This document shows, one piece after another, positions 1 through 44,054 of a DNA stretch of 62,473 nucleotides. Under the pieces are notes generated by a model. The model saw only the letters and a program-made list of their open reading frames with translations, was not told the DNA's origin and did no database searches. The stretch comes from Roseofilum reptotaenium CS-1145 (lineage in GTDB: Bacteria > Cyanobacteriota > Cyanobacteriia > Cyanobacteriales > Desertifilaceae): positions 1 through 62,473 of the forward strand of contig NZ_JAQMUE010000054.1 in NCBI RefSeq assembly GCF_028330985.1, given 5' to 3'. A program made the position numbers and the translations under genes. Position 1 is the stretch's first letter. Every line of letters begins with the position of its first letter.

Positions 1-369
1 CTGGTGAATAATGGTGTGTAAAGTTCTTCCACTCTCGACTTCTGTGATTTTGGCTGTTTTGTCATCGCTGCCAGTAGCCAGGTAACGTCCGTCAAGGGAA
101 AAGGCTGCTGCCCTGACCTTACTCTGGTGAATAATGGTGTGTAAAGTTCTTCCACTCTCGACTTCTGTGATTTTGGCTGTTTTGTCATCGCTGCTAGTAA
201 CCAGGTAACGTCCGTCAAGGGAAAAGGCTACTGCCCTGACCCTACTCTGGTGAATAATGGTGTGTAAAGTTCTTCCATTCTCGACTTCTGTGATTTTGGT
301 TGTTTTGTCATCGCTGCTAGTAGCCAGGTAACGTCCGTCAGGGGAAAAGGCTACTGCCCTGACCTTACT
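1..369 (-). repeat. Tandem 123-bp WD40-coding repeats
   Basis: Three successive units begin at 1, 124 and 247, and a diverged fourth begins at 370. Each unit is 123 bp (41 codons), encoding one WD40 blade with the SPDGRYLATSSDDKT type of core. By eye, neighbouring units differ at only 4-5 positions (about 96-97% identical). That suggests recent duplication or gene conversion of sensor blades. The array continues beyond the window. Confidence 0.9.
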
Positions 370-3300
370 CTGGTGAGGAATTTGATTCTGCGCCCTGATC
401 GTTTGGGTAATTTGTTGCAATGCTGAAATTGGACTATAGGCGACATACTCAGTCACAGATTGATTAATCACTTGAGAGTACAACTCTTGAGTGATTTGTA
501 GGGCAAAAACAAGAGTCTCTAACTGCTGACTGGGTACATTCTCAAATTGCCGTAGGACTTTAATACCCAACCGTTCCCATCGAATACTGTCTAGGGCGAG
601 TTTGCGTTCTACCCTAGCTCGATACACCAACCCACCTGTACCAGCAATAATCAGCACTGAGGCCAGAGATGTGAACCTTAATTGCCAACGGCTCTGCCGT
701 ACCCTCTTCTCAATCTCAGCTAAACTGCGTTCCGCTTCTTCCCGTTTGGTTTGCTCCTGTTCCAGTTTCTCCTGCAACTGTCGTAGTTCCGGTGCTTGCT
801 CGCGCACATAGCGCACCAAATAATCATGCACCAACTGATAGCACTGTTCCCCTCGCTCGTCTATCGACAGCACCAACCCCGAACCCACCAATATCTTCAG
901 CACCAGGGGTAAGTCTGCCTCCTCTATCTTTTCCCGTAACTCCCGTTCCAGTTCCGGCTCTGTCTTCACCGGACGGCGCAAGTCTTCATCCGTCAACAAA
1001 AACAACAGCCAATAGGCCGATCGCTCATGTTCTGTGCCACAATCTTCAACAACCGTCTTGATATAACGCCGCACCAGCTCCGTTTTCGGCTCCAACACCC
1101 CCTCATACAGCCGCTCGTACTCCTCCAACCGCGTAATATAACTGTCTTCCAATTGACTGCCTACAATCTGTAACTCAATCGGAATCACCTCTTCCGTCTC
1201 TCCCGCCAAATCCTGCACCAGACGCTCCAAGAGTTCCTCTTCCGGATGAAAGCTCGTCTTCTCCGTCAACCGCCGAATAATCTGCACCGCCTCCTCCGGC
1301 TGAAAATAGGACAACGGATAAGCATTCTCCTGACGCAGCACATCCCCCACCCGTTGCAGTTCCCGTTCCTCAAACAAATAATGAATATAATCCTGGCGAA
1401 TCGAAATCACCACTTGCAGCTTAGGACAGCGCTCCAACCCCTCCGAGAGCAACCCAAACAGCGCCCTCCGCTCCGGCTTTGTCCGAAACCGAAAGAAAAA
1501 CTCCTCAAACTGGTCAAAAATCAACACAATGCGCTCATGGGAACGCTCTGCCTCTCGCCACACCCGCAACAAATCCCCCTCAGTCCACCCATTCCCGTGC
1601 CCTGAGCGGAGTCGAAGGGCTGTTCCCTGAGCAAACTCAAAGGACGTGCCCTGAGCGGAGTCGAAGGGCTGTTCCCTAAGCGGAGCCTGTTCCCTGAGCG
1701 AAGTCGAAGGGAGCGAAGTCTGTTCCCTGAGCGGAGTCGAAGGGAACAACCCAAAGCGCTCCAACTGCTCCCCAATCTGCCCTTGCCAATCCTCATATCG
1801 CCGCAACACAATAGGAACAATCCGGTCTTGATGCACCTTCTCCTCCAAAGCCGGAACCAACCCCGCTTGCAACAGCGAACTCTTCCCCACCCCCGAATAC
1901 CCATAAATCACCGTCACCACATGAGACGTATCCAATATCCGCTCCACCAACTCCTGAACCGCTTCCTCTCTCCCAGCCGCCCGAATTTCCGTCGCCACCC
2001 CCCGTTGATGGGGTCTGGGTTTCAAGCGACTCGCCCCCACAAACCCGCGAAAATTATACTCAAACTCCGCCGTCCGTAACTCCCGCTTCACCTCATAGGC
2101 TTCCCAATAGTCCTGACGCTCAAACAACAACGCTCTCAACAACTCCAACGCTTCCACATGCAGCCTCGGCGCACGTTCTACCCCCAACTCCCGTACCTTC
2201 TGTACCCTCTGCAATTGCTCAATAGCTGCATCCCTCTCTCCCCGACGGCGATAAACTTTTGCCAAAATCAACCGCGACAGCACCATATAATATTGAGTCG
2301 AGTCTTCTGGAGCTTCCTGTAATACCTTCTCGCTCCACTGCTCTGCCTCCTCCCAATGCTCCTGCTCAAACGCCACCTCTGCTAACACCGAATAATCCCG
2401 CAATAGATAATACTTCGGCCATTTCTCCTCATCTTCATGGAACGGAATCACCTGACGCGCCAACTGTGCCAACAACTCCCAATGCTGCAAATAGCGCAAG
2501 ATTCCCAACCAGCGATGAAACGTCCTCGCCACATTCTCCAACCTTCCCCCCTCTTCCCACAGTGCCAACGTTCGCTGCACATACCCATACGCCACCTGCC
2601 ACTCAGAACCCTCTCGCCGTTGCTCCTCTACCAGTTCATTAAATAACTTCGGCGGCACAAACTGTACATTCTCCCTCGTCGGAAACGCTTTCCGAAAATA
2701 GGCATACGCCAACTGACTGCACACATAGCCTTGTTGCTCCAGATTTCCCTGCTCTTCCCACATCTCCAGCGCCCTTTGATAATGTCCAATAGCTTCCTCA
2801 ATCTGGCGATTATCTCCATAAGGCACTCCAGCCAACCCCAACAACAGTTCTAGATGCGCTCTCCCTTCAGAACTCAGAGTTCCGGCTCCCTCCTCTTCGA
2901 TATCCCGTTGGAGCGCTTCTAGTGCCATTGCTAGTTCTTTGGCTTCTTCCGGAGTACACATCACCCCATTCCTTTGAAAACGCTCCACCCGCTCGGCTAA
3001 CCAGTCATTCAGTGCGGCTGAAGGAAGCCGAAATTGATAGTGACTTGCCCAACTTGCCAAATCCGGAGCCGATTTGAGCAACGTTTTCAAGACTCCCTGA
3101 TTCACCCAAAACACCATTGGTACAGGAAACTCCCCCTTCAGAGACTCCCGCACCTGGTTCACGGATGCCAACAGTTTCTCCAGTTGCTCGACTCGCTCCC
3201 AACCCGTAAGAATTAGGGAATAGGGAATAGGATTTTCATTTCCCCCCGATGTTTCTTGATAAGATCCTTCTCGGTGCAGCGCATTTAATAAAGAAGTCTC

Positions 3301-3486
3301 CCCTTCCTGCAATTTCACTACCTTGATGTGTAAGGCTGACATCTTCACTAACTCATCGATTAACGCCTGCTGCAAATCACCATAATTACAACAAGCAATC
3401 ATCAGCGCAAACTCACCGCGAGACACTTCAAGCATCCAGTTGAGGTTGTCTAGAATATCCAGATTTTCAGGACTGAGAGCAATCAT
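1..3486 (-). CDS. STAND NTPase with TPR-like, membrane and WD40 regions (copy A, 3' end outside window)
   Basis: One uninterrupted minus-strand frame runs from an ATG at 3486 to the left edge (1162 codons), so the C-terminus is missing. Residues 1-170 are a degenerate NTPase-like N-domain and 180-500 are helical and TPR-like. The P-loop GYSGVGKSS lies at about 529-537 and a Walker B-like FDQFEEF at about 658-664. A coiled coil is followed by one membrane segment near 935-960, and WD40 repeats start at about residue 1038. This is the layout of STAND sensors, which are thought to oligomerise when ligand binds the repeats. Relative to the 38910-44054 paralogue it carries about 50 extra residues (about 582-633) encoded by palindromic repeats. 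Its likely partner is the ATPase at 4640-6016. Role in defence or signalling is inferred. Confidence 0.85.
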   Translation of the reverse strand, partial: MIALSPENLDILDNLNWMLEVSRGEFALMIACCNYGDLQQALIDELVKMSALHIKVVKLQEGETSLLNALHREGSYQETSGGNENPIPYSLILTGWERVEQLEKLLASVNQVRESLKGEFPVPMVFWVNQGVLKTLLKSAPDLASWASHYQFRLPSAALNDWLAERVERFQRNGVMCTPEEAKELAMALEALQRDIEEEGAGTLSSEGRAHLELLLGLAGVPYGDNRQIEEAIGHYQRALEMWEEQGNLEQQGYVCSQLAYAYFRKAFPTRENVQFVPPKLFNELVEEQRREGSEWQVAYGYVQRTLALWEEGGRLENVARTFHRWLGILRYLQHWELLAQLARQVIPFHEDEEKWPKYYLLRDYSVLAEVAFEQEHWEEAEQWSEKVLQEAPEDSTQYYMVLSRLILAKVYRRRGERDAAIEQLQRVQKVRELGVERAPRLHVEALELLRALLFERQDYWEAYEVKRELRTAEFEYNFRGFVGASRLKPRPHQRGVATEIRAAGREEAVQELVERILDTSHVVTVIYGYSGVGKSSLLQAGLVPALEEKVHQDRIVPIVLRRYEDWQGQIGEQLERFGLFPSTPLREQTSLPSTSLREQAPLREQPFDSAQGTSFEFAQGTALRLRSGHGNGWTEGDLLRVWREAERSHERIVLIFDQFEEFFFRFRTKPERRALFGLLSEGLERCPKLQVVISIRQDYIHYLFEERELQRVGDVLRQENAYPLSYFQPEEAVQIIRRLTEKTSFHPEEELLERLVQDLAGETEEVIPIELQIVGSQLEDSYITRLEEYERLYEGVLEPKTELVRRYIKTVVEDCGTEHERSAYWLLFLLTDEDLRRPVKTEPELERELREKIEEADLPLVLKILVGSGLVLSIDERGEQCYQLVHDYLVRYVREQAPELRQLQEKLEQEQTKREEAERSLAEIEKRVRQSRWQLRFTSLASVLIIAGTGGLVYRARVERKLALDSIRWERLGIKVLRQFENVPSQQLETLVFALQITQELYSQVINQSVTEYVAYSPISALQQITQTIRAQNQIPHQSKVRAVAFSPDGRYLATSSDDKTTKITEVENGRTLHTIIHQSRVRAVAFSLDGRYLVTSSDDKTAKITEVESGRTLHTIIHQSKVRAAAFSLDGRYLATGSDDKTAKITEVESGRTLHTIIHQ
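1588..1743. repeat. Cluster of short palindromic repeats inserted in frame
   Basis: The core CCCTGAGCGGAGTCGAAGGG and degenerate copies recur at about 1600-1620, 1649-1669, 1693-1711 and 1725-1744. They interrupt the STAND gene between its P-loop and Walker B but keep the frame. The encoded stretch has low-complexity motifs such as PLREQ and DSAQGT. The same core lies in the loop of the palindrome inside the cyclase gene at 31022-31075. Confidence 0.85.
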
Positions 3487-3522
3487 GAGGTTAGGGAATA
3501 GGGAATGGGGAATAGGAGTTTT

Positions 3523-3879: not shown

Positions 3880-3885
3880 TTCCCC

Positions 3886-3910: not shown

Positions 3911-3938
3911 TCCTCCTATCACAGCCCAAAGCACTGTA

Positions 3939-4157
3939 TCATTGATTCAAAGCATCCAACCGCTCCAAAATCTCTAAACCCTGCGCCACATCACCCTGCA
4001 TTGCCAAGGCTTGAAAGCGTGTCTGAGCATCAAACTCAGCCAGTGCCAGTGTTGAGAGTTCCTCCATTAGTTTATTCACACTCATGCCACGAGATTGAGC
4101 CAGTGCTTTCAGGCGAGAATGTTTATCATCGGGTAAACGAATAGTTAAGGTTGCCAT
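3939..4157 (-). CDS. Ribbon-helix-helix antitoxin (VapB/CopG-like)
   Basis: A 72-residue protein. The N-terminus ATLTIRLPDDKHSRLKALA is the short beta strand plus two helices of an Arc/CopG ribbon-helix-helix DNA-binding domain, and MSVNKLMEELS forms the second helix. The C-terminal tail probably wraps the PIN toxin encoded just upstream, with a gap of 7 bases. The family usually neutralises its toxin and represses its own operon as a dimer. Here the toxin gene comes first, the reverse of the usual antitoxin-toxin order. The ATG at 4157 is the only sensible start. Confidence 0.8.
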   Translation of the reverse strand: MATLTIRLPDDKHSRLKALAQSRGMSVNKLMEELSTLALAEFDAQTRFQALAMQGDVAQGLEILERLDALNQ

Positions 4158-4164
4158 ATTATAC

Positions 4165-4587
4165 TTACTCCATAATCAAGGCTTTAGGGGAAAGAATAGA
4201 AAGCTGGGGAAAGATGAGTTCAGCCCTCTGGAAATCTTTAACATTTTGGGTGATAATTGCCTCAGCATTTCCTGCGATCGCCAACTCAATCAAATGATTA
4301 TCCCCTTCATCCCTCAAGTTTGGCCGCCATAAGTAATACACCTGAACCCATTGACTCACCGACATCAAAGCAGCCAGCAATGCTTCAACATCTACTCTCG
4401 GTAGCGGACAACGTGCCATGACTTCTGACCTCGACAGAATGGACTCATACTCCAAAAACAAAGCTATTCCCATCAGGGGTTGATACTTGCCTTGTAAGCA
4501 GGCACGAAGCACAGCACGACTGACACCATCGGCACTAATCAAGGCACTGACAAAAACATTGGTGTCAATCACAAGCTTGCTAGACAT
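4165..4587 (-). CDS. PIN-domain toxin (VapC-like ribonuclease)
   Basis: A 140-residue PIN protein. LVIDTNVFVSAL carries the first catalytic Asp, the Glu/Asp cluster continues in YESILSR and RDEGDNHLIELA, and AIITQNVKDFQ is the C-terminal strand with its Asp. PIN toxins of this 'toxin component, PIN family' group are Mg-dependent ribonucleases kept inactive by the partner antitoxin. It is followed after 7 bases by the ribbon-helix-helix gene, and the two are surely one operon. The pair sits inside the AAA/STAND module of copy A and is absent from copy B, so it was probably acquired. Confidence 0.85.
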   Translation of the reverse strand: MSSKLVIDTNVFVSALISADGVSRAVLRACLQGKYQPLMGIALFLEYESILSRSEVMARCPLPRVDVEALLAALMSVSQWVQVYYLWRPNLRDEGDNHLIELAIAGNAEAIITQNVKDFQRAELIFPQLSILSPKALIME

Positions 4588-4639
4588 GAGCCAATGATAG
4601 CATATACGCCATCATTAGGGATGGGAATGGCGATCGCCC

Positions 4640-6016
4640 CTATGCCCTATTCCCCAATTGTTCCGCGCCTTCCAAAATGGGGTTGAGATCGAACCAAGAA
4701 ACTCCATCTTCTTGATACTCAAATACTAAACGAGAATGAATTAATTTATCGTAATGTTCATCGCCGCTTACCTGCTGAGTCTGTTGTACCTGTCGCAACA
4801 ATTCCCATTCAGATTCATCAATCTGCAACATCATATTACTGCGTCGCTGGCGGATGACAAATTCTAAACTTTCACGGATAAGTTTTCCCTTTTTACGGTC
4901 TTTAGGAATCCACTCAGTTAACAGTTGCAGTAATTCCCGGACATGACCGCCACTGGTACGACAGAGATGGTCTAAACTGGAGGAATGATCAAATATTTCT
5001 ACAACTTTATTCAGTCGTTCTGCTTCAGTCAAATTGGGGAAAGCTCTGGCTAAAACCATTTGCCTCATTTTCTCCATTCCTTGAGGACAATCTTGGCGAT
5101 CGCGATTCTTAAGCCGTACCATAGGCAAGAGTTTCGGTGAATCGGGATAGCGGGTTGTTAAACGGTTGTATTCATCACAAAATCGTAATGATAAGGGCAT
5201 GGTATAGACTAGGTGGCATTGGAATTTTTGCAGGAATTCGGCTTGATCAATAAACAAGTATTCTTGTTGAGGACGATCCCAAGATTTTCGGGTGGCATCA
5301 ATGCGGTCTAAGTTATCAACAATGACAACTAATCCTTGCTTGTTTTGTTGTTTTAAGCATTCAATGGCAGGCTGAATCAGTTCTTGGTTAATGGCTTTGA
5401 TTAACTCGGTTTTCTGCGGCCCTAAAAATTGATTAAGCTTCTGTCTCAGTTGAGTATCTTCTTTCGCTTTGGCAGTAATTTTAGCAATTCCCATGCCTAA
5501 TGAAAAGCCTTCTGAATTGGCTTTAACACCGATTTGAGGCAGTTTTTCAGTTTCAGGAATGCCAATTTCTGCTTCTGTGAGATTAAATTCCTTTTGTAAT
5601 AAATCCGTGGTTCGGTTTAAGAATCCCCGTAGTCCTGTGGCTGGGGGAAGTTGTAGTTCTTCGAGTCCCTGGGAAATTCGACGGGCGATCGCCAATAATA
5701 CATCTCCAATATCTACATCTGCTAATTCTAAGTCTTCGCTGGATTCAAAATAAATGGTATAAAATCCGGCTTCTTCCAATTCCGTTCTGAGCTTCAATAG
5801 TTCGGTTGATTTACCGCAGCCAATATGTCCAGTAAAGAGATTACAGGTGGGTTCATCGGGATAGATCTCAGTAATATGCTCAAATAACTCGGTAATAACG
5901 CGATCGCCTCTTACCTGAGTAAAATCAATATAGAGCTTTCTTTGTTCGCGATCGCTAACATCAATAGTATCGCTCGGTTTAGTCGCTTTAAGAAACCGAA
6001 TAAAATCAAAGGGCAT
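4640..6016 (-). CDS. AAA-like P-loop ATPase of STAND-WD40 module (copy A)
   Basis: A 458-residue soluble ATPase. Walker A is GHIGCGKSTELL (K69) and Walker B is in LVVIVDNLDRI. YFESSEDLEL follows the P-loop, and HLVYTMPLSL is a sensor-like strand. The C-terminal 100 residues are helical with WFDLNPIL near the end. It is clearly paralogous to the 467-residue protein at 37549-38952, with Walker A at the identical position. In copy B the next gene is the STAND-WD40 protein. Here the STAND gene (1-3486) lies in the same direction about 1.1 kb downstream, with the TA pair and a pseudogene in between. The function is not established. The ATPase may load, or be controlled by, the STAND partner. Confidence 0.8.
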   Translation of the reverse strand: MPFDFIRFLKATKPSDTIDVSDREQRKLYIDFTQVRGDRVITELFEHITEIYPDEPTCNLFTGHIGCGKSTELLKLRTELEEAGFYTIYFESSEDLELADVDIGDVLLAIARRISQGLEELQLPPATGLRGFLNRTTDLLQKEFNLTEAEIGIPETEKLPQIGVKANSEGFSLGMGIAKITAKAKEDTQLRQKLNQFLGPQKTELIKAINQELIQPAIECLKQQNKQGLVVIVDNLDRIDATRKSWDRPQQEYLFIDQAEFLQKFQCHLVYTMPLSLRFCDEYNRLTTRYPDSPKLLPMVRLKNRDRQDCPQGMEKMRQMVLARAFPNLTEAERLNKVVEIFDHSSSLDHLCRTSGGHVRELLQLLTEWIPKDRKKGKLIRESLEFVIRQRRSNMMLQIDESEWELLRQVQQTQQVSGDEHYDKLIHSRLVFEYQEDGVSWFDLNPILEGAEQLGNRA

Positions 6017-8405: not shown

Positions 8406-8510
8406 AGCTCTGTTTGGTGAGGATAGCTTTGTTACTTATCATACTGTAAAATCCTTTCGTCAACATTTAATCGACATGGCAAAAGAGTAATGGGTACACA
8501 GTTTTTCCCC

Positions 8511-8537
8511 ATTCCCTATTCCCTATTCCCTATTCCC
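8511..8537. repeat. Short tandem heptamer repeat (TTCCCTA)
   Basis: Three to four consecutive ATTCCCT units occupy the gap between the secreted TPR gene and the lipoprotein gene. It is the same STRR-type heptamer as at 3886-3910 and 54331-54362. Confidence 0.8.
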
Positions 8538-8545
8538 CAAGAAAT

Positions 8546-8962
8546 CTATTGAGTTCCTGCATCAATACCTAACTCGATATTCGAGCGACACAATTGTTGG
8601 GTGGCTTCATCTGGAATCAAGACTAGCTCTTTTTCTTCAGGATATTCTCGTTTCAGAGCCGAAACTCTCACGGTTCTGGGTAGGGGAGTGATGCGAGCTG
8701 ATTTCATCTGTTCCTCTTCCATTTCATCAAACGCAATCGGCCACTCTGCTGCACCTAAATCAGAAAAGAGATAACGAACAAACTCTGAAGGCTTGCCATT
8801 AGGATAAATGAGATAAAAGCAGGAACGAGAGAGCATTTTAGGAGTCGCCATTTGAGCCATTGCAGATGAGGCTTGTTTGATGTCCGGATTCGGGGGGGCC
8901 TCACATCCGGCCAACAGGAGAGCGCCGACTAAGGTTAGTCCTAAAGTGGTTCTAAAAATCAT
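8546..8962 (-). CDS. Small lipoprotein
   Basis: 138 residues. The N-terminus MIFRTTLGLTLVGALLLAGC is a clear lipoprotein signal with the lipobox LAGC, so the Cys at about residue 20 should be lipidated. The mature part is acidic and mixed, with SCFYLIYPNGKPSEFVRYL and CRSNIELGIDAG. I do not recognise the family. The start is an ATG at 8962, and the gene diverges from the 9040 gene with only about 77 bases between, so a shared promoter region is likely. Confidence 0.75.
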   Translation of the reverse strand: MIFRTTLGLTLVGALLLAGCEAPPNPDIKQASSAMAQMATPKMLSRSCFYLIYPNGKPSEFVRYLFSDLGAAEWPIAFDEMEEEQMKSARITPLPRTVRVSALKREYPEEKELVLIPDEATQQLCRSNIELGIDAGTQ

Positions 8963-9039
8963 TTTGGTTTCTCCCTATCGGGCTTATCTATAATAGTGAA
9001 CAGTTAGGGGCAATTAACGTTTATTTGAGTGAAGCAGAA

Positions 9040-10293: not shown

Positions 10294-10294
10294 C

Positions 10295-10328
10295 TATAGC
10301 CCTTCGCGCTAGGGAATAGGCAATAGGC
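10295..10328. repeat. REP-like hairpin with heptamer tail
   Basis: TATAGCCCTTCGCGCTAGGG followed by AATAGGCAATAGG starts immediately after the stop codon of the unknown 9040 gene. It is the same family as 7037-7062. Another copy lies at 10505-10535, inside the IS4-like remnant. Confidence 0.7.
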
Positions 10329-10464
10329 ATTGGTAACAAGTTAAGGCTGTACACTAGTTGTCAAAAGAGATCGGGCTGGGTATTCTTGACGAGATTGGTA
10401 GGAAGAACAAGAACCGAATTAACCCAGTATGGTATTAGCGCAACAACATTTTCAACATTTGTGA

Positions 10465-10899
10465 ATAGTCGATGCTTCGACTTGAGAAGCCTTGTTTCGG
10501 AAACTTACAGTGCTTCGCGCGGTAATAGGTAATAGGAAAACCATTTTTCACGCTATAATGTCCATTCTTCAAGCTTTTCATCGGAAAGCACTCTCAAGGA
10601 AAATTTCGATTACTGTACCTCATAACATCGAAAAATGCTGTAAGAGCTTAGAAACGACTCCCTTGGGTCAGTTAGGAGGCCGGATTTGTGCTGTGGTCGA
10701 TTTAGACACTCGTTTACCAGTAGACACTTGGTGTTCTCAAAACCCCTACTAACATGAAACTTATTTTACGCAGTCTCTGTTAACCTGAGTTCGAGTTAAG
10801 CAGAATGTTGACAAAGCAGTTCACTGGGCTACGGTGACGGGAGTGTTCAATTTGAGAAATATTCTTCAGTTGGCCAATCACCGTAAAAAGTCGCCATAG
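10465..10899 (+). pseudogene. Remnant of an IS4-family transposase
   Basis: Two blocks in plus-strand frames look like pieces of cyanobacterial IS4-type transposases. Block 1 (10465-10752) reads IVDAST, a TGA, then EALFRKLTVLR; after a REP-like insertion it continues to LGGRICAVVDLDTRLPVDTW. Block 2 (about 10806-10899) reads [19 protein letters not shown] and ends with TAG. Most of the catalytic core between them is gone and several stops interrupt the frame. The end abuts the IS701-like gene with no space. Non-functional. Confidence 0.65.
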
Positions 10900-20200: not shown

Positions 20201-22705
20201 CGTGCCCTGCATACCCTCAGCAACTGTAACCAGGAGATCGTCCGTTCCACCTCTGAAACTGACTTGATCCATAACATCTGTCACATCCTCGTGAACCTGG
20301 GGGGATATCGTCTGGCTTGGATCGGGTATGTTCAACAAGATACCCAAAAAAGTATTACTCCCATGGCCAAAGCTGGGTATGAAGAGGGCTATCTTGACCA
20401 GCTCCACATCACTTGGGCTGATACTGAACGAGGCCGAGGCCCCACCGGAACCGCTGTCCGTACCGGCCAACCCTGTACTTTCCAAAACATTCTCACCAAT
20501 CCCCACTATACCCCTTGGCGAACCCAAGCCAAGCAGCGGGGTTACCGCTCCTCCATTGCCCTTCCCCTGAAAACTGACCAAGGCGTATTTGCGGTCCTCA
20601 ACCTTTACTCTAGCCAACCCGAAGCCTTTGATGCCTCTGAATTTCAGCTTCTGTGCGAATTGAGTGAAGATATCACCTATGGAATTATAGCCCTGAGAAC
20701 CCATCACGCCCACGCTGAGAGTGAGGAAAAATTCCGCCAACTGGCTGAAAATACGAATGATGTGTTCTGGATGACCACGGCAAGCCTCGACCAAATGCTC
20801 TATGTGAGTCCCGCCTATGAAAGGATTTGGGGACGCACTCAACAGAGCCTCTATCAACGGCCCCAGTCCTTTATAGAAGCCATACATCCGAGCGATCGCC
20901 CCAGGATTAGCGCCATTCTCCAATCCTCCTATACTTTTGATCTCGAATATCGCATCAGGCAACCCAATGGCAACCTGCGCTGGATTTGGGATCGAGGCTT
21001 TCCCATTTTTGATGCCAACGGCAAGGTGTATCGGCGGGCCGGAATTGCCAAAGATATCACCACCCGCAAAGAAACGGAAGAATTGCTACGTAGTACGAAT
21101 GAACATCTAGAAGTCCGAGTTGCCCAACGGACGGCTGAACTAGCCTCAGCCAATCACCGGTTGCGAGAGGAACTCGAACAAAGACAACGGACGGAAACTC
21201 AACTTCGTAACTCCCACAAACAATATCGCACCCTCGTGCAGAATTTTCCCCAAGGGGCGGTATTCCTGTTCGATCGACAGTTCCGCTATACCATTGCTGA
21301 TGGAGTTGGATTAGCCGCCATGGGATTAGACGGCGATCGCCTAGAAGGTCAATTAATTAACCAAGTCCTGCCTGCTGACCTCCTGCAAAACACTGAATTT
21401 ATCTATCATTCTGCCTTAGTGGGGCAAACCGTAGCCACAGAAATTACCTATCAAGAACGAACTTATCACTATCGCGCTAATCCCCTCAGAAATGAACAGG
21501 GCCAGATTTTTGCTGGCATGGTGGTGATGCAGGATATTACTGCCCAAAAACAAAGTAAGGCGATTCTGGAGGAAGCGGAACGCCGGTGGCGAACCCTACT
21601 GGAAAATGTACGCTTATTAGTTGTGGGACTCGATCGCCAGGGAAATATTGAATATGTTAATCCTTTTTTTGCCGAATTAACCGGCTATAAAGCCTCGGAA
21701 ATCATCGGCAAAAATTGGTTTGACACTCTGATTCCAGCCCATGCTTGCTCCAAAGTACGCCGTGCTTTCCAAGCAATGCTGACCCCCGAAGGGAATCCCC
21801 ATTATCAACATACTTTGCTGACCCAGTCTGGGGAAGAGAAAAAGATCGCCTGGAATAGCACCCAACTCCATAATGCCCAGGGAGAGGCGATCGGGACCAT
21901 GAGTATTGGTGAAGATATTACCGAACGTTACGCTATTGAACGGATGAAAGATGAGTTTATTTCCGTGGTGAGCCATGAATTGCGTACCCCCTTAACCTCC
22001 ATTCATGGAGGCTTAAATTTATTATCCACTGGCTTAGTCGATCCAAGTTCCTCCAAAGGAAAGCATGTGATCAATATTGCGGCTGAGAGTGCAGAGCGTT
22101 TAGTGAGATTGGTCAATGATATTCTGGAATTAGAGCGCCTAGAGTCCGGCAAGATTCGTTTACAAAAACAGGCGATCGCTGTCAACGAATTATTGCGGCT
22201 CGCTGTAGAGCAAATGCAGGTGATGGCCAGCCGCGCTCGAGTGACCCTTGTGGTCTCAGAAGAGACTTCAGGCGTAGAGTTTTATGCGGATTTAGACCGT
22301 ATGTTACAAGTGCTAACCAATTTGTTAAGCAATGCAATTAAGTTTTCCGATCCAGGAAGTCAGGTTAGATTAACAGCCATCCTTGGCTCTCCTAGCGATC
22401 CTATCAGCGATCGCCAGCCTTATTGTAGCCTGCCGTATTCCCCCTGTTGGGACTCCCCCCACCTCATCTTTACCATCGAAGATTGGGGGCGAGGAATTCC
22501 AGAAGATAAATTGGAGTCCATTTTTGAGCGTTTCCATCAAGTCGATGCTTCTGATTCCCGTCGTAAAGGAGGCACGGGTCTAGGCCTAGCCATCTGCCGC
22601 AGTATTGTGGAGCAACATGGGGGACGGATTTGGGTAGAAAGCCAATTAAACCAAGGGAGTCGTTTTTCGCTTTGCCTATCCATCTATAGCCAAGGAGAGG
22701 GATAA
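17270..22705 (+). CDS. PAS/GAF-rich sensor histidine kinase
   Basis: 1811 residues with no transmembrane segment, so a cytosolic sensor. In order: GAF (about 175-305), five PAS/PAC domains (318-965, each ending in a DISDRKQAE-like PAC motif), a second GAF (about 980-1125), PAS 6, a coiled coil (about 1255-1290), PAS 7 and 8, and HisKA with SHELRTPLTSIHG (H1569). The HATPase domain has the N box NLLSNAIKF (about 1684) and the G boxes DWGRGIPEDKL and GGTGLGLAICRS. The start is a GTG at 17270 or an ATG at 17327. It lies between two response-regulator genes with 7- and 3-base gaps, so all three should be one phosphorelay operon. GAF or PAS ligands are unknown; no bilin-binding Cys was verified. 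Confidence 0.9.
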   Translation: MNRDTIKRFGCLALIRRSDMVFPNYRCNSLEGENRTQASERFRTQLATDAEIHQALSVLQHLMLIIDLNHHEIKVIPTDIQTDWVQLTVQELSREGYLCAMEKAIATQTPQLFQYQLTHTNQLTRSFQAQIYPYAENTVLWVAQTHTSLSPPPSLPSLLAEITLKIRQSLDVESILEITTTEVCKLLQTDRTLILQLQKDGSALVIQESVVPGWMALLGQKIYDPCFRAYDFHYLQGRIGQLNQISTLSKNSCYRDLLDYFQVQSNLVIPIISQDQLWGFIALHQCAHPRHWQSWEIDGIKQLGNQVGIAITQYKILQELRLVAQKLTFHFENSPLAVIEWNHEFRVSQWSPQAEHILGWDFAEVQGQHWSQFPFIFDPDLEEFKESVFSLIDGSQDRQICSYRNLTKTGQVIYCQWYHSVLRDREGNVLSILSLVQDVSDRHKAETALRQSEAHFRITFEQSPIGMSLNNLDGTAVQLNQAYLNLLGYSFAELKKLPLRYFIHPDDLHIDRALYQQLIDRTIDHYTIEKRLINKSKEIVYTLFKVALIHDDNGDPLHLISQVIDISDRQQVEESLRQSEERWQLAIQGNHDGIWDWNVQTNQVFFSPRWKEMLGYSDGEISNDLEEWTDRVHPDDFPWAVRAIRKHFNQETPFYMHEHRLQCKDGSYKWILDRGRALWDEAGNVLRMVGSHTDISDRKQAEQELQQTQNFLQTIIDYLPVAVFVKEGRPDKFGQFKLWNKTCERIFGLTAEQAVGSTDYDWFPWEQADGFVCKDREVLARGEPEEILEERVDSYHLGQRILHTIKVPIYGEEYEPEYLLCISEDITDRKQAEAALRESEARYSSLTNDVLDKSAVGIFILDADFKVVWVNQTLENFFGIHREEIIGRDKRELIRDRIQYFFADPQQFKDTVLDTYDHNTYTKNFECHILPDPDRQERWLEHLSQPIESGLYAGGRIEHYTDISDRKHNEAELHRLNRALHTLSNCNQEIVRSTSETDLIHNICHILVNLGGYRLAWIGYVQQDTQKSITPMAKAGYEEGYLDQLHITWADTERGRGPTGTAVRTGQPCTFQNILTNPHYTPWRTQAKQRGYRSSIALPLKTDQGVFAVLNLYSSQPEAFDASEFQLLCELSEDITYGIIALRTHHAHAESEEKFRQLAENTNDVFWMTTASLDQMLYVSPAYERIWGRTQQSLYQRPQSFIEAIHPSDRPRISAILQSSYTFDLEYRIRQPNGNLRWIWDRGFPIFDANGKVYRRAGIAKDITTRKETEELLRSTNEHLEVRVAQRTAELASANHRLREELEQRQRTETQLRNSHKQYRTLVQNFPQGAVFLFDRQFRYTIADGVGLAAMGLDGDRLEGQLINQVLPADLLQNTEFIYHSALVGQTVATEITYQERTYHYRANPLRNEQGQIFAGMVVMQDITAQKQSKAILEEAERRWRTLLENVRLLVVGLDRQGNIEYVNPFFAELTGYKASEIIGKNWFDTLIPAHACSKVRRAFQAMLTPEGNPHYQHTLLTQSGEEKKIAWNSTQLHNAQGEAIGTMSIGEDITERYAIERMKDEFISVVSHELRTPLTSIHGGLNLLSTGLVDPSSSKGKHVINIAAESAERLVRLVNDILELERLESGKIRLQKQAIAVNELLRLAVEQMQVMASRARVTLVVSEETSGVEFYADLDRMLQVLTNLLSNAIKFSDPGSQVRLTAILGSPSDPISDRQPYCSLPYSPCWDSPHLIFTIEDWGRGIPEDKLESIFERFHQVDASDSRRKGGTGLGLAICRSIVEQHGGRIWVESQLNQGSRFSLCLSIYSQGEG

Positions 22706-37548: not shown

Positions 37549-38952
37549 ATGACTTTAGATTTAGGGCGATTTTACCAAGCCTGCAATCCATCTGCACCAT
37601 TAGACTTGGGCGATCCCGACAATTCCCGTTATTATATTGACTTTTCTTCTGTGCGGGGGGGCAAAATTGTCAAAGCCTTGGGTCGTACCATTATCACCCT
37701 ATCTCCCGATCGCCCCACGTGCCAACTGTTCACCGGCCATATTGGATGTGGGAAATCCACCGAATTATTGCGCTTAAAAGCCTTGCTAGAGGAACAAAAC
37801 TTCGAGGTTGTCTACTTTGAATCCTCCGAAGACCTAGATATGGGCGATATTGACATTACCGATATTTTATTGGCGATCGCCCGTCAAGTCAGCGAACATT
37901 TACAGCAGCGCTCTATCGAACTGCAACCGCGCACGTTCAAAACCCTGCTCAAAGACGCGGTAGACTTTCTGCAAACCCCCATCGACTTAAGCGCCGAAGC
38001 CTCCATTCCCGGAGTCGGAGACATCAGCGCCAACAGTAGCGGTGAACTGGAATTCTCCCTTCCCCTCGGTATTGCCAAAATCACGGCCAAAACCAAAGAA
38101 AGTCAAAAACTGCGCCACCGTCTTCGTAACTATCTCGAACCGCGCACCGCCAGTATTTTAGAAGCCATCAACCAAGAACTCCTGCAAGTCGCCACTGCGC
38201 AACTCAAGCGTCAGGGGAAAAAAGGATTAGTCGTCATTATCGATAACCTCGACCGGGTACATAATCAAGCCGGGCCAACTGGACGACTCTTACCGGAATA
38301 TCTATTTATTGACCGAGGCGCGCAACTGCGTCAACTCGACTGCCATCTCGTCTATACAATTCCCCTCTCCCTGATTTTTTCCAGTGAATGCGAAACCCTA
38401 AAAAATCGCCTTGGAGGGGGAATTACCCCCAAAGTTCTACCCATGGTTCCAGTGAAAACCCGCACTGGAGAACCCTTCCCCTTGGGGATGCAACTCTTGC
38501 ACCATATGGTCTTAACCCGTGCATTTCCCGATCGCACCTTAGAAGAACAACAGGCCTGTATTTTAGAACTCTTTGACCACCCGGATACCTTAGATAGGCT
38601 CTGTGAAGTCAGCGGGGGTCACATGCGAAACCTCTTGGGAATGCTCTTTAGTTGTCTGCAACAAGAAGACCCGCCCTTTTCACGGGATATACTAGAGACA
38701 GTCATTCGAGACCGTCGGGATTATTTAACCACCTCGATTAACGATGAGATATGGGAACTCTTGTATCGAGTGGTCAATCAGCAAAGCGTACAAGGAGACC
38801 TAGAATACTTGACCTTATTACGCAGTATGTTTGTCTTTGAGTACCGAGATGCTGAAGGCTCTTGGTTTGCCCTCAATCCCGCCCTATACGAGCATCAAAA
38901 GTTCAAGCAATGGTTAGCACAGAACAACAGTGGGAAGATTGCGACTTCATAG
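37549..38952 (+). CDS. AAA-like P-loop ATPase of STAND-WD40 module (copy B)
   Basis: 467 residues. Walker A is GHIGCGKSTELL (K69), YFESSEDLDMGDIDITDILL follows it, Walker B is in LVVIIDNLDRV and the sensor-like strand is HLVYTIPLSL. The helical C-terminal part ends with WFALNPALY. It matches the copy A ATPase (4640-6016) along the whole length, with shared blocks such as CDEYNRL/SECETL and SGGHMRNLL/SGGHVRELL. The next gene overlaps it by 43 bases from its preferred start, indicating translational coupling. A dedicated partner for the STAND protein is the simplest reading. Confidence 0.85.
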   Translation: MTLDLGRFYQACNPSAPLDLGDPDNSRYYIDFSSVRGGKIVKALGRTIITLSPDRPTCQLFTGHIGCGKSTELLRLKALLEEQNFEVVYFESSEDLDMGDIDITDILLAIARQVSEHLQQRSIELQPRTFKTLLKDAVDFLQTPIDLSAEASIPGVGDISANSSGELEFSLPLGIAKITAKTKESQKLRHRLRNYLEPRTASILEAINQELLQVATAQLKRQGKKGLVVIIDNLDRVHNQAGPTGRLLPEYLFIDRGAQLRQLDCHLVYTIPLSLIFSSECETLKNRLGGGITPKVLPMVPVKTRTGEPFPLGMQLLHHMVLTRAFPDRTLEEQQACILELFDHPDTLDRLCEVSGGHMRNLLGMLFSCLQQEDPPFSRDILETVIRDRRDYLTTSINDEIWELLYRVVNQQSVQGDLEYLTLLRSMFVFEYRDAEGSWFALNPALYEHQKFKQWLAQNNSGKIATS

Positions 38953-41900
38953 AGAATGAACGGGCCCTCAAACAGTTGGCCCGAGCTATTTCTCTGTCTC
39001 AAGGGCAATTTTCCTTAATTTTGGTACGCTGTAACTATGTCCAATTGCGAGAAAAGGTATTAAAACAGCTATCGGAGGTATTGAAGGCGCGATCGCCAAA
39101 AATAACGGATGAAATTCCCCCATTTCGATGCTTGCAATTATCCCCAGACATTAACCATTTATATCACACGGTTAAAGCTGATTTTGCCCTAACTGAAGAT
39201 CGACCCTCTGCATTATTGGTCTTAGGTCTAGAATCCGTCATTAACTTAGAAGATATCTTAATTTCCACCAATGTTATCCGGGATGAATTTCGCAAACAAC
39301 TCAATTGTCCTCTCGTTTTATGGGTCAACGATCGCCTACTCCATCAATTTTTGCAACTTGCACCCGATTTTGCCAACTTTGCTGCTAATCCCATCTCCTT
39401 CGAGATGACCACCGAAGCGCTTTCTACCCTGATTATCCAGAAAGCACAAACCTTACTCGACAATCTCTTAAGTCGCGATAAGAAACAACTACTCGCCTTT
39501 CCCCTGTCTTTTATTTCTCCCAAACAGGGAGGATGTGGCCAACATCGCGCCGAATTAGAATTTGCCCTCTCTACCCTGGAGCGTCGAGAAACTGTATTTG
39601 ATGCCAGTTTAGAAGCGAGAGTCGCGATTCTTTTAGGTCACGATCGATTGATGCAAGGGCAGATTGAAGGCGCGATCGATTCTTATCAAACTGCATTAAA
39701 TTATGAACAACAGTTATCCCCTCAGCCCAATTTAGAGCATCAAGGCCTATTGCTCTTCTATCTAGGACTTTGTTCCTTTTATCCCGCCCAAGAAAACCCA
39801 GAAAATCAGCAATTATGGGAACAGGCGTGGCATTATTTCTATCAGGCTATACAGTGCTTTCAAGATGCTGACCGGCAGGATTTAATGGCGCAAATGACGG
39901 GACAAGTCAGTGATGTACTGCAACATTTACAAGCCTGGGAAACTCTCGTAGAGTTTACCCAAAAGTCTCTTGATTTGCATCAGCAGTATGGTTTACCCAT
40001 TCAGTTAGCTCTCGATTATGGTTTTTTAGGCAAACTCGCCCTAGAACAGGGAAAGTGGGAAATAGCCCGCGAGCAATTAAAGCAGTGTTTAGCAATTTTA
40101 GACTCAGCAGCAACCCCACCTATTGACCAAGATTTTCCGCCTTTACCGCAAGGATTATATCCTCTCCTCTGGTCTCAGTTATTTCAATTACAATTAGTCC
40201 AATGTTTGCGTCATTTGAAGCACTATGAACAGGCTTATCAGACGTTAGCAGCAGCGAAACATAAACTAGAATATGCCATTACCCAAAGCAATGCTCGCCA
40301 TGACCCACACCGATATTTACGCTTATTGAAAGGGCTGCGATCGCTCTATTTTGATGAACAATGTTATCGAGAAGCCTTTTTACTCAAACAAGAAAAGCGC
40401 TCAGTCCAGTCCCAGTATGGATTACGTCCCTTTGTGGGGGCAGGCCAATTAAGACCCGCTCAACAAGCCTTAAATCCCCTATTGGCTAATCGCATAGAAA
40501 CGGATGCACAGGTTGGAGAAGTCGCTGAAGCTATCTCTACCTCTAACCGTCAAAAAGATGTGCAAAACCTCCTTTATCGGATTAGTCGTCCGGATTATAA
40601 AATAACCGTGATTCATGGCCCTTCTGGAGTGGGAAAAAGTTCGATTGTTAGCGCAGGATTAGTCCCTACTTTGCATCGAACTACCCTAGGAGATCAAATT
40701 CCAGTTCCGGTCGTTATCCGCGTATATTCCGATTGGGTTTTGAATTTTGGGAAAGCCTTCAATGAATCCTTAAAACACTTTCAATTCACTCCTAGAGAAA
40801 TCTCAGATTATACCCCAGAAATTTATCTACAAGCCTTCGACCAAATTGCCGATCAAAGTGGCTTGACAGTACTCATTTTTGACCAGTTTGAAGAATTTTT
40901 CTTTGTCTGTACTGAGCTTGAAAAGCGACAAGCCTTTTATCAGTTTTTAGAACAGTGTATCAATCAAGCAGGGCTGAAAATTATTTTCTCAATTCGGGAA
41001 GATTATTTACATCATCTGTTGGAAATTGAACAAAATATATCCTTAGAGGCGATCGCCTGTAATTTACTCGATAAAAGTAATCGCTATGCTTTGGGCAATT
41101 TTTCCAAAGCACATACCTTTGAAGTGATTAAAAATTTGACTCAGAAGACTAAATTTGAACTGGATGATGATTTGATTGAGGCTTTAGTCAATGATTTATC
41201 GGTGGGAACCAATGAAGTCAGACCAATTGAATTACAAATTGTTGGCTCTCAACTTCAAGAGCTTAACATTACCACACTAGAGCAATATCTTCAAGTCGAA
41301 TCGAAGCACAAATTGGTCGAGAAATTTTTAGAATCTGTAATTGCAGATTGTGGAGAAAAGAACGAGTATCATGCCCGAAAAGTAGTTTACACTTTTATCG
41401 ATGAAGACGACAATCGGCCTTTAAAGACGAAATCCGAAATTTTAGCCCAAATGGGTTCCGATCTTGCTCCAGAAACCCTAGAGCTAATTTTAGATATTTT
41501 CTTTGGATCGGGCTTAATCTATCCGATTCCCGAACAACCCGAACCCCGGTATCAGTTGGTTCATGATTATCTGGTTGAGTTTATCCAAACCCAGAAACAA
41601 CAGGCTATTCATCAGGAGCGATCGCAGCTTCAGGAAGAAAACGCCCAAAATCAAAAAGAAATTGAAGATTTACGGGATGAAAATCTTCTCATTTCTCAAC
41701 TTGCTGAAGAGCGCTATAAGGCAGTACAACAGGATTTGGAAGATTATATCCCGAATTCCAATCATTCTGCTTCCGAGTCAGAATCTATAGACCAGGAGAA
41801 AAAACGCTTATCGAAAGGAAAACTCGTTCTGGAAAACTTGCGGCAAGAAAAAACATTATTAACCGCGTTAGCCCAAGCAAAAGCGAAACATAAAAAGAGT

Positions 41901-44054
41901 GAACGACAGCGCAAGTTAATTTTGAATTCTCTCTTAGTAGGTGCGGGCTTTTTTATCCTAGGATTAGGAGGATTTGCCTGGAATGGGGTGATTAATCAGA
42001 TTAAAACATTAGGGACATCTTCTGAAGCTTTAGTAGGACTCAATAATGAAATTGAAGGTTTAACTACCGGACTGAAAGCGGGAGAACAGATTAAAAGTAC
42101 GCCATTTTTGCCTAAATCAGTTTCCGATACAATTGAGAAAACCCTATCCTATGCAGTTTATAGAATTAGTGAAGAAAATCGCTTAGAAGCACATAAAGAT
42201 GGGGTTTATGCCGCCACCTTTAGCCCCGATGGTAAACTGATTGCCACCGCAGGGGAAGACCGCACCATTCGCATCTGGGATGAGCAAGGCAAGCCTGGTT
42301 TTACGATTCCTGGTCATCAAGATATTATTACCAGTTTGGTGTTTCTGGAGGATGGAAAATGGTTAGCCTCTGGCAGTTGGGATCATAGTATTAAACTGTG
42401 GAATTTAGGCAAGTTTCCCGATTTAGGCAAGATAGCGAACTTAGATCGGATAGAATATGTGGAATTAAAGGGTCATACGGATCAAGTTATTGCTCTCGCT
42501 GCTCATCAAGACCCGAAGAATCCTTTGATTGCTTCAGCGAGTCGAGATCAAACTGTAAAAATCTGGCGTAAAGATGGCTCGGAAGTGGTAACTTTATCCC
42601 ATGATTTTCCTGTATTAAGTGTGGTATTTTCTCCCGATGGTCAGTTGGTTGCTACAGCTAGTTTTGACGGCAAGATTCGCTTTTGGAGTTTGGATGGTTC
42701 GTTAGTCAAAACCTTTGTGGGCGAGCCAGAAGTGCAAGAAATATATAGCATGAGTTGGTCAGAAAGGGGACTTTTGGCGACTGCCGGTCAGGTCATTGAT
42801 GAGGAAACGGGACAGAAAAAAGGGACGGTAAGTTTTTGGACTGAGGAGGGCTTTCTTACGCAAATTGAAGCCCATGAGGATACCGTTTTAGATGTGCGAT
42901 TTAGTCCCAATGGGAAACAGTTTGTGACGGCAAGTAAAGATAAGACGATTAAAATTTGGGGGGGGTTGGATAATAACAGTTTGCAAAAAACCTTAATTGG
43001 TCATACCCATTGGGTTCCCAAGGTGGGGTTTAGTCCTGATGGGAGTCGCATTGTTTCGGCTAGTTTGGATAAGTCGGTGAAGGTGTGGCGCTTGAATAAG
43101 TCCCTGATGGAGGTCTGGGACGGGGGTGGGGCGCTGAATGGGGTGAGTGTGAGTGGCAGTAAAATTGCTACGATCGGGGATTATGGCATGATTACGTTAT
43201 GGCAACCGGATGGGACGGTGCTAAAGTCCTGGAAAGGTCATGAGGGACAGGTTTGGGGAGTTGACTTTACACCAGATGGTCAGCAGTTGGTGACGGCAGG
43301 GGACGATCTCCAAGTCAAGGTTTGGAACCTAAAGGGTGAGCTGCTGCAAACGTTGGAGGGTCATCGAGATGTGGTTCTCAGTGTCAGCGTCAGTCCCGAT
43401 GGAAAGTATATTGCTTCAGGAAGTAAGGATTATCGGGTGAAGTTATGGCGCACAGATGGGACGTTATTGAAAACTTTATTCACGGATAGCTCTGCCATTA
43501 ATTGGGTCAGTTTTAGCCCTGATGGTCAACTCGTGGCTGCTGCAAGCGATGAGGGACGAGTAAAATTATGGCGTACGGATGGCACTCAGGTGGGAACTCT
43601 GCGACATCGAGCTGGGGTTTGGGGCGTAACTTTTTCTCCTGATGGTCAGGCGATCGCCACTGCCAGTTATGATAGCCGAGTCAAACTCTGGAACCGACAG
43701 GGACAACTATTGGGTGAACCCCTGGAACATGAGGGAAACACCGTAACCAGTGTTGCCTTTAGTCCTGACGGAGAGCAGTTAGCATCCGCCAGCCACAACA
43801 CCATTCGCCTCTGGCGCAAAGACGGAACCTTACTGCATGTGCTGACTGCAAGTTCCCATCGTTCGATTAATGGACTTAGTTTCACTTCCGATGGCAAAAC
43901 CCTGATTTCTGTCGGTGGAGATGGACAAGTCACCCTATGGCATCTAGATCAGTTGGAACTCGACCAGCTATTAGAAACGGGATGTCAATGGTTACAAGGG
44001 TATTTGGAGAACAATCCTACGGGTCAAAAAGAGAGACTGTCTGTGTGTGACTGA
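38910..44054 (+). CDS. STAND NTPase with TPR-like, membrane and WD40 regions (copy B)
   Basis: 1714 residues from the ATG at 38910, chosen because alignment with copy A starts nearby; an upstream ATG at 38862 gives 1730. The N-domain (1-175) is NTPase-like without a P-loop, and TPR-like helices span about 190-530. The P-loop is HGPSGVGKSS (K576) and Walker B is LIFDQFEEFFF. A STAND helical region and a coiled coil precede one membrane helix near 1005-1030. About 13 WD40 blades (about 1092-1690) include TAGEDRTIRIWD and SASRDQTVKIW, and the C-terminal helix has LDQLLETGCQWL. It probably acts as a membrane-tethered sensor whose NTPase oligomerises on ligand binding. Confidence 0.88.
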   Translation: MVSTEQQWEDCDFIENERALKQLARAISLSQGQFSLILVRCNYVQLREKVLKQLSEVLKARSPKITDEIPPFRCLQLSPDINHLYHTVKADFALTEDRPSALLVLGLESVINLEDILISTNVIRDEFRKQLNCPLVLWVNDRLLHQFLQLAPDFANFAANPISFEMTTEALSTLIIQKAQTLLDNLLSRDKKQLLAFPLSFISPKQGGCGQHRAELEFALSTLERRETVFDASLEARVAILLGHDRLMQGQIEGAIDSYQTALNYEQQLSPQPNLEHQGLLLFYLGLCSFYPAQENPENQQLWEQAWHYFYQAIQCFQDADRQDLMAQMTGQVSDVLQHLQAWETLVEFTQKSLDLHQQYGLPIQLALDYGFLGKLALEQGKWEIAREQLKQCLAILDSAATPPIDQDFPPLPQGLYPLLWSQLFQLQLVQCLRHLKHYEQAYQTLAAAKHKLEYAITQSNARHDPHRYLRLLKGLRSLYFDEQCYREAFLLKQEKRSVQSQYGLRPFVGAGQLRPAQQALNPLLANRIETDAQVGEVAEAISTSNRQKDVQNLLYRISRPDYKITVIHGPSGVGKSSIVSAGLVPTLHRTTLGDQIPVPVVIRVYSDWVLNFGKAFNESLKHFQFTPREISDYTPEIYLQAFDQIADQSGLTVLIFDQFEEFFFVCTELEKRQAFYQFLEQCINQAGLKIIFSIREDYLHHLLEIEQNISLEAIACNLLDKSNRYALGNFSKAHTFEVIKNLTQKTKFELDDDLIEALVNDLSVGTNEVRPIELQIVGSQLQELNITTLEQYLQVESKHKLVEKFLESVIADCGEKNEYHARKVVYTFIDEDDNRPLKTKSEILAQMGSDLAPETLELILDIFFGSGLIYPIPEQPEPRYQLVHDYLVEFIQTQKQQAIHQERSQLQEENAQNQKEIEDLRDENLLISQLAEERYKAVQQDLEDYIPNSNHSASESESIDQEKKRLSKGKLVLENLRQEKTLLTALAQAKAKHKKSERQRKLILNSLLVGAGFFILGLGGFAWNGVINQIKTLGTSSEALVGLNNEIEGLTTGLKAGEQIKSTPFLPKSVSDTIEKTLSYAVYRISEENRLEAHKDGVYAATFSPDGKLIATAGEDRTIRIWDEQGKPGFTIPGHQDIITSLVFLEDGKWLASGSWDHSIKLWNLGKFPDLGKIANLDRIEYVELKGHTDQVIALAAHQDPKNPLIASASRDQTVKIWRKDGSEVVTLSHDFPVLSVVFSPDGQLVATASFDGKIRFWSLDGSLVKTFVGEPEVQEIYSMSWSERGLLATAGQVIDEETGQKKGTVSFWTEEGFLTQIEAHEDTVLDVRFSPNGKQFVTASKDKTIKIWGGLDNNSLQKTLIGHTHWVPKVGFSPDGSRIVSASLDKSVKVWRLNKSLMEVWDGGGALNGVSVSGSKIATIGDYGMITLWQPDGTVLKSWKGHEGQVWGVDFTPDGQQLVTAGDDLQVKVWNLKGELLQTLEGHRDVVLSVSVSPDGKYIASGSKDYRVKLWRTDGTLLKTLFTDSSAINWVSFSPDGQLVAAASDEGRVKLWRTDGTQVGTLRHRAGVWGVTFSPDGQAIATASYDSRVKLWNRQGQLLGEPLEHEGNTVTSVAFSPDGEQLASASHNTIRLWRKDGTLLHVLTASSHRSINGLSFTSDGKTLISVGGDGQVTLWHLDQLELDQLLETGCQWLQGYLENNPTGQKERLSVCD

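Follow-up and report, generated by a model that had tools for sequence, protein, structure and literature searches.

A cyanobacterial AAA+ ATPase gene paired with a Walker A-less N-domain of predicted AAA+-like fold on variable partner proteins

A 62,473-nt stretch of Roseofilum reptotaenium CS-1145 DNA, referred to here as the window, is the entire contig C54 (NZ_JAQMUE010000054.1) of a 5.67-Mb genome. It carries an AAA+ ATPase gene that overlaps a very large gene for a STAND protein with WD40 repeats (module 1, proteins P0001 and P0002) and, on the opposite strand, a second ATPase followed by a similar partner (module 2, P0003 and P0004). An earlier reading of these letters alone (the sequence-only reading) took the repeated combination for a dedicated functional unit. 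Does the pairing hold in other genomes and, if it does, what exactly is paired? The answer is that pairing and co-evolution are both strong, but the border of the unit had been drawn in the wrong place. The ATPase is paired with a domain of about 150 residues at the N-terminus of its partner (the N-domain), which has no Pfam family, and not with the WD40-STAND protein as such.

In module 1, the open reading frame (ORF) of the 467-residue ATPase P0001 spans 37549..38952 (+). The protein contains Walker A (GHIGCGKST), Walker B (LVVIIDNLDR) and SGGHxR motifs, and the predicted model suggests a winged helix for its C-terminal part. The Walker A position was said to be common to both window ATPases, and GHIGCGKST indeed occupies the same columns with equal preceding gaps. 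The ORF of the partner, P0002, spans 38910..44054 (+). With its ATG at 38910, the previously described 43-base overlap of the two genes is correct; an alternative TTG start at 38862 would make it 91 bases. The N-domain (38955..39434, +) has an AAA+-like predicted fold without Walker A and is followed by a TPR-like region (39570..40480, +, limits approximate), the nSTAND1 NTPase domain (residues 563-906, 40548..41579, +), a coiled region, a predicted transmembrane (TM) segment LILNSLLVGAGFFILGLGG (residues 1019-1037, 41916..41972, +), which is the only hydrophobic segment of P0002 scored as such, and 12 stretches of WD40 repeats matched by Pfam (42189..43961, +, limits approximate). The nSTAND1 domain easily passes the gathering score of PF20703 (102.6 bits against 27.1). 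The domain order proposed earlier is borne out for nSTAND1, WD40 and the single TM segment, with the TPR matches staying below the Pfam cut-offs (in the 38910-40500 part, TPR_12 scores 25.9 against 30.1 and TPR_11 23.4 against 26.8). The closest named records among the matches listed are a cyanobacterial metagenome-assembled genome (ATPase 99%) and Roseofilum acuticapitatum (94%).

The frequency of the pairing was determined in three samples. They overlap (for example, the same ATPase is found in L100 and L148), and the 144 collected ATPases amount to 140 different ones. The first sample comprises 80 named loci, which are the best 80 of 496 relatives and hence not random. A same-strand N-domain gene lies within 1.2 kb of the ATPase in 73 of these 80 and at 3.65 kb in L030. 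Six have none: masked bases directly follow the ATPase in L026, the contig ends in L085, in L062 a transposase gene of the IS605 type lies 290 bases further on, on the opposite strand, L035 and L072 are near a contig end with other genes there, and the sixth is L065. The second sample consists of 19 related genomes including that of the window, in which 66 ATPase rows minus 10 short or weak ones leave 56 full-length ATPases. Here, 52 of the 56 ATPases and 52 of the 67 N-domain matches are paired; the 15 unpaired N-domain matches comprise five stand-alone short proteins, two full STANDs and eight weak matches (26-36 bits). The third sample, 59 genomes drawn evenly across Cyanobacteriota, contains the ATPase in 16 genomes, the N-domain in 16 and both in 15. 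Its ATPases are paired in 52 of 55 cases, with about 0.11 pairs expected by chance. Outside the genomes of the second sample the count is 34 of 35 (the genomes concerned partly recur among the named records), and the single miss is followed directly by a TPR gene that scores weakly, with 14 bits, for the N-domain. In the third sample, 17 of the 68 N-domain matches are left over once each ATPase has been assigned its nearest partner. The majority of these have no adjoining ATPase, one is the second N-domain of locus L143, and two stand before an ATPase. Within Cyanobacteriota, neither of the two outcomes that would have spoken against the sequence-only proposal (ATPase homologues mostly away from STAND-WD40 genes, or a pairing confined to close relatives) was observed.

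Comparison of the partners shows which of their parts is constant. The N-domain contains the conserved motifs RCNY, GLES, PLVLWV and APDF. The R. reptotaenium genome encodes eight ATPases including those of the window, the only two known to the sequence-only reading, and all eight are followed by a gene that starts with the N-domain. Five of the eight precede TPR-nSTAND1-WD40 partners. At loci L019, L020 and L021 of the same genome, the partner overlaps the ATPase by 11-16 bases and has its N-domain within the first 170-190 residues, and the remainder is TPR plus nucleotidyltransferase, TPR alone, and NB-ARC plus TPR, respectively. Partners in relatives also include TPR with sigma-70 region 4 (L127), nSTAND1 without WD40 (L122, L129) and TPR arrays. 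Open frames of less than 1000 residues account for 28 of 51 paired partners in the phylum sample (at least one of them, G059:C79, ends at a contig edge). As such partners are about as common in this even sample as longer ones, the idea that the ATPase and a WD40-STAND protein make up the unit was rejected. Short genes that contain the N-domain only (L100, L146, L147) still follow an ATPase. In L143, two ATPase genes stand ahead of one partner that carries two N-domains, and the second of these ATPases has a C-terminal TIR domain (PF13676, E 1e-32), a fusion found in one of the 60 genomes of its family.

The two components also change together. From the collected loci, 122 different pairs were chosen by score (at least 100 bits for the ATPase and at least 40 bits for the N-domain). 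The correlation of ATPase and N-domain distances is 0.908, as opposed to 0.800 ± 0.024 for shuffles within genomes, none of 2000 of which was as high. For the 49 pairs of 18 genomes with several pairs, the values are 0.860 and 0.564 ± 0.060, again with 0 of 2000. Co-evolution, for which the sequence-only reading had suggested a comparison of trees, is thus borne out by these distances. The two genes overlap in 65 of the 122 pairs and are separated by more than 500 bases in 12.

What kind of proteins are these two components? According to fold comparison, the predicted ATPase structure resembles AAA+ structures of the origin recognition complex (ORC), TnsC and STAND proteins, and the predicted N-domain also matches AAA+ structures, with Walker A present in 0 of the 122 N-domains. 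By sequence, the Protein Data Bank yielded no convincing relation, the best matches being at 8e-4 over a P-loop stretch and at 0.018. P0001 and P0003 narrowly pass the cut-off of 20 of the KAP family PF07693 (22.2 and 20.8), the L019 ATPase stays under it (19.3), and P0001 scores higher with AAA_22 and ATPase_2 than with KAP. KAP proteins have membrane helices within the P-loop domain. Neither P0001 nor P0003 has a 19-residue window with a hydrophobicity above 1.6, so that helices of the KAP type are not predicted. The possibility that the N-domain is a recognizable diverged copy of the same ATPase was discarded, as hhalign detects no relation between the two.

The distribution of the family suggests that it mixes core and accessory copies, with congener-wide and ftsQ-linked copies on one side and plasmid copies on the other. 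Of 100 genomes sampled from the order, 68 encode the ATPase, and a single genome can have as many as 11 matches; among 72,556 plasmid records, 8 contain a homologue. Close matches to module 1 occur in each of the five congeners (L199-L203); their ATPases are 84-99% identical, with L203 (84%) counted as an orthologue by best match alone. These congeners contain 1 to 6 ATPases each, fragments excluded. The module 1 neighbors recur in part: a histidine kinase in L199, a subtilase in L200 and L201, and neither in the fetched stretches of L202 and L203. Across the congeners, the partner diverges more than its ATPase, and in each of them WD40 has the highest identity of five partner regions, which disposes of the notion of WD40 as a fast-changing sensor. 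Furthermore, 36 of the 144 collected ATPases (33 of the 140 different ones), e.g. those of L064, L078-L082 and L087-L096, are located no more than 4.5 kb from ftsQ and/or ftsZ, a fraction that is biased because the collected loci are mostly best matches to the window's family. The identity of the two FtsQ and one FtsZ query sequences was confirmed, and 32 of the 36 linked ATPases have a partner. In R. reptotaenium itself, ftsQ is on contig C18, which has no ATPase match. The ftsQ-linked label requires 5 changes on the fasttree tree, which carries a warning of long branches.

Defence annotation of the region, another step that had been proposed, gave scattered PADLOC matches. None of the models matched explains the pair, and the comparison of the flanks does not show a defence island. 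P0001 matches PDC-S20 (1e-7), mad8 (7.4e-5), SspC (0.008) and PtuA (0.03), P0003 matches PDC-S20 (4.4e-4), and P0002 matches HEAT-ARM_XIII over its WD40 part and mad3 (0.008). For the island hypothesis, 84 test genes (55 of 114 flank genes, from 10 loci not beside ftsQ, and 29 window genes) were compared with 84 of 110 control genes from arbitrarily chosen loci, with 25 families inspected per list. At E 1e-10, the test genes match 31 PADLOC families and the controls 49 (families, not proteins, were counted), which leaves an island without support. AbiEi, AbiEii, IetA and IetS models were matched among the flank and window genes. In the phage records and viral contigs searched, no match was found.

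Among published systems, the nearest idea is that of the MoxR-vWA ternary conflict systems with iSTAND, which the sections of Kaur et al. (2020, PMC7159879) drawn upon here describe as an active MoxR and an inactive STAND with variable effectors, with cyanobacteria among the main carriers. An AAA+ protein with intact motifs beside an apparently dead AAA+ partner with variable parts is what we see here, too. Unlike those systems, there are two genes and not three, the ATPase is ORC/TnsC/STAND-like by fold and the dead domain has no Pfam family. A link to MoxR by gene neighborhood exists in L171, where a distant ATPase homologue (162 bits; KAP score 34.4) is the C-terminal part of a protein adjoining an annotated MoxR on a Nostoc plasmid. 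Pfam finds no vWA there at E 0.001, and a vWA part is suspected by eye only. In the window, Pfam shows neither MoxR nor vWA in the six proteins that it was applied to (most other large ORFs were compared with PADLOC only). The nSTAND1 family is named in conflict systems (PMC8195603, in the part consulted), and nSTAND1 proteins carry C-terminal sensor parts (PF20703; PMC8195603 and PMC10907252, likewise in part), which is also the arrangement of P0002 and P0004, where WD40 repeats follow nSTAND1. They differ from the published proteins in that no known effector or EAD domain was found at the N-terminus, where the AAA+-like domain lies instead, and in the ATPase gene that regularly accompanies them. 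The TnsC of Tn7-like and CRISPR-associated transposons (CAST) resembles the ATPase in the fold comparison, and the partner here is a modular sensor protein. KAP NTPases are approached just as closely as the narrow PF07693 scores indicate, with no hydrophobic segment in either window ATPase. ORC and clamp loaders resemble the pair in the fold of both parts and, as far as the proposed docking goes, in combining a dead subunit with active AAA+ ones. No convincing sequence relation to them was found, and the present proteins add TPR, nSTAND1, WD40 and membrane parts, with no sign of DNA loading. Leipe et al. (2004) reportedly placed the Npun2340/2341 family in the MNS clade. This family of STAND NTPases, which PMC8195603 names from work of 2004 in the part consulted, may be related, so that priority for the pair is uncertain. 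Our literature searches, including the sections of PMC7159879, PMC8195603, PMC10907252 and PMC12288457 that they covered, found no description of the ATPase/N-domain pair.

What the computations show is a unit that stays constant and co-evolves, consisting of an ATPase whose motifs are intact and a predicted AAA+-like adaptor without Walker A, together with exchangeable sensor and output parts. We lean, with modest confidence, towards a two-protein AAA+ switch, in which the active AAA+ ATPase would bind a dead AAA+ adaptor through which variable sensors and outputs feed into one ATP switch. ORC and clamp loaders contain dead AAA+ subunits among active ones. By analogy, the N-domain would dock through AAA+ faces onto the ATPase and join its oligomer, and the nucleotide state of the ATPase would then control the partner. 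In the window copies, the WD40 and TPR parts might sense a trigger, upon which nSTAND1 would oligomerize at the membrane. The clustered N-domains would recruit or activate the ATPase, or else the ATPase would set the threshold, and it could serve either as the switch or as a platform for an effector. In other copies, the adaptor would couple the ATPase to TPR arrays, nucleotidyltransferase, sigma-70 region 4 or NB-ARC. A bolder version, which we regard as tentative and rather doubtful, is that of a plug-in platform: one ORC-like or NLR (nucleotide-binding leucine-rich repeat)-like ATPase family coupled through the dead adaptor to any sensor or output of the kinds seen in the partners, nSTAND1-WD40 included, with TIR carried by the ATPase itself. 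It would be a two-chain bacterial "resistosome" with motor and sensor on different chains and an active/dead AAA+ interface, one ancient copy of which filamentous cyanobacteria would have retained next to their division genes.

Several observations weigh against the switch. Adjacency and co-evolution could stem from co-regulation. No N-domain gene adjoins the ATPases of L035, L065, L072, L103-L105 and L165, the ATPase of L163 is instead fused to AAA-like and TPR-like parts (both identified by eye), and that of L171 sits in the MoxR locus without an N-domain. Conversely, seven of the unpaired proteins mentioned above for the relatives, five N-domains standing alone and two full STANDs, have no ATPase neighbor, and the phylum sample adds further ones of this kind. 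The fold match of the N-domain is modest (TM scores of 0.40-0.58 among the 50 matches listed), and the ATPase and N-domain profiles do not align (hhalign, 1% probability), because of which their common descent is not established.

The most probable competitor, plausible but on balance less credible to us, is an anti-phage or programmed-death conflict system, in which recognition of an invader by the WD40-STAND protein would lead the ATPase to launch a toxic response. The TIR domain at the C-terminus of one ATPase and the MoxR-linked homologue on the Nostoc plasmid, which is the setting of the conflict systems in the consulted sections of PMC7159879, point to conflict biology. The occurrence of nSTAND1 in conflict systems (PMC8195603, in part), the nucleotidyltransferase partner, the several copies in many genomes, the 8 plasmid records and the AbiEi/AbiEii and IetA/IetS matches are in line with it. 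However, the TIR fusion is limited to that 1 of 60 family genomes, the phage records and viral contigs gave no match, and the flank and window genes do not exceed arbitrary loci in PADLOC families (31 against 49). The core-looking copies, namely the one beside ftsQ-ftsZ in many genomes and module 1, which is found in 5 of 5 congeners with WD40 as its most conserved partner region, argue against a purely anti-phage role. Together with the flank counts, they leave room for a wider signaling role. Weighing the TIR fusion and the MoxR link against the core copies and flank counts, we rank the general switch first and defence, with which it overlaps, second.

The same core copies could be taken for a growth or septation regulator of filamentous cyanobacteria, one copy of which stayed beside ftsQ-ftsZ while others spread. 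The 36 of 144 linked ATPases, the presence of the ATPase in 68 of 100 genomes of the order and the 84-99% match of module 1 in all five congeners would fit, but a conserved neighborhood alone does not prove a common function, the fraction is biased, the 5 tree changes leave the orthology of the linked copies unproved, and the ftsQ contig C18 of R. reptotaenium has no ATPase match. We consider this explanation unlikely. Somewhat less improbable, and still doubtful, is that the ATPase acts as a chaperone or inhibitor dedicated to its partner, which it would fold, load or restrain, as proposed for MoxR and vWA proteins. The active ATPase is encoded first and often overlaps the next gene, the constant part is the N-domain of that partner, and an ATPase homologue adjoins MoxR. 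On the other hand, the ATPase fold resembles ORC/TnsC/NLR scaffolds (the absence of MoxR from the listed matches is no exclusion), and one ATPase bears an effector-type TIR domain. Finally, as an interaction of the two proteins is deduced from sequence, the genes might be co-inherited in an operon without touching each other's products. This is very improbable given that the pairing runs through one domain across unrelated partner types, that genes with the N-domain only still follow an ATPase, that the dose is matched two to two in L143 and that co-evolution exceeds within-genome shuffles. A vague pairing has become a defined, widespread and testable cyanobacterial module, and the N-domain provides a diagnostic handle on cyanobacterial TPR and WD40 proteins that are loosely named in public records. 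If the docking of the switch is true, it would be a new bacterial route to NLR- or ORC-like assemblies from two chains.

Module 2 is an interrupted copy at the contig end. A second inverted pair had been placed at 1-6016, and an opposite-strand pair is present there, but it is not intact. Its ATPase P0003 (458 residues, ORF and Pfam, 4640..6016, -) does not overlap the partner P0004 (at least 1162 residues, 1..3486, -), which leaves the contig within its WD repeats. The 1,153-base gap contains a PIN_3 gene (4165..4587, -; PF13470, 85.8 bits) and a 72-residue ORF (3939..4157, -) that is antitoxin-like by eye and has no Pfam match. The same two genes sit between ATPase and STAND in the congener L142 (1640-2288), and hence the insertion probably predates the split of these species. 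P0004 has its N-domain at 3007..3468 (-) and its nSTAND1 domain at 763..1974 (-; residues 505-908, PF20703, 109.9 bits against 27.1). Positions 1-381 hold three WD repeat copies with 123-bp spacing and 95-97% identity, and these near-identical repeats are the likely cause of the assembly break. The description of the STAND proteins as membrane-linked holds for P0002 but is weak for P0004 (Kyte-Doolittle 1.59 at residue 936), and a TM-like segment is found in 43 of 63 full-length STAND partners. The window ATPases are about 47% identical and fall into different sets of the tree, which rules out a recent duplication within the window; as far as their sequences tell, the two pairs are old paralogues.

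Some further observations concern N-domain relatives and neighboring genes. Stand-alone N-domain genes of about 160-210 residues with no ATPase next to them occur in L107, L108, L109, L110, L111, L157, L158 and L159, all of which belong to different genomes. G010, G016 and G017 have an unpaired ATPase plus a stand-alone N-domain gene elsewhere. This is not a rule: G011 and G012 among the relatives, as well as G039, G045 and G056 in the phylum sample, contain a stand-alone N-domain but no unpaired ATPase, and the reverse is seen in G009, where a short unpaired ATPase is found and no stand-alone N-domain. Proteins of 634-767 residues whose start weakly resembles the N-domain (29-34 bits) and that have no adjoining ATPase are encoded in L114 (2947-4890), L115 (3742-6045) and L116 (3352-5256) and are possibly a distant cousin of the adaptor. 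The L163 fusion has 961 residues (7764-10649, -), combining the AAA-like and TPR-like parts with the ATPase and having no N-domain partner. Within nSTAND1 of P0004, an in-frame repeat-like insert (LREQ..PFDSAQGT, 1588-1731, -) lies between Walker A and FDQFEEF, and at the matching place L142 carries a different insert of this type. The Pfam scan of six window proteins, including both neighbors of module 1, identified, among others, a CHASE histidine kinase and a subtilase, and a multi-PAS/GAF histidine kinase of 1811 residues is encoded at 17270-22705 (+) of the window.

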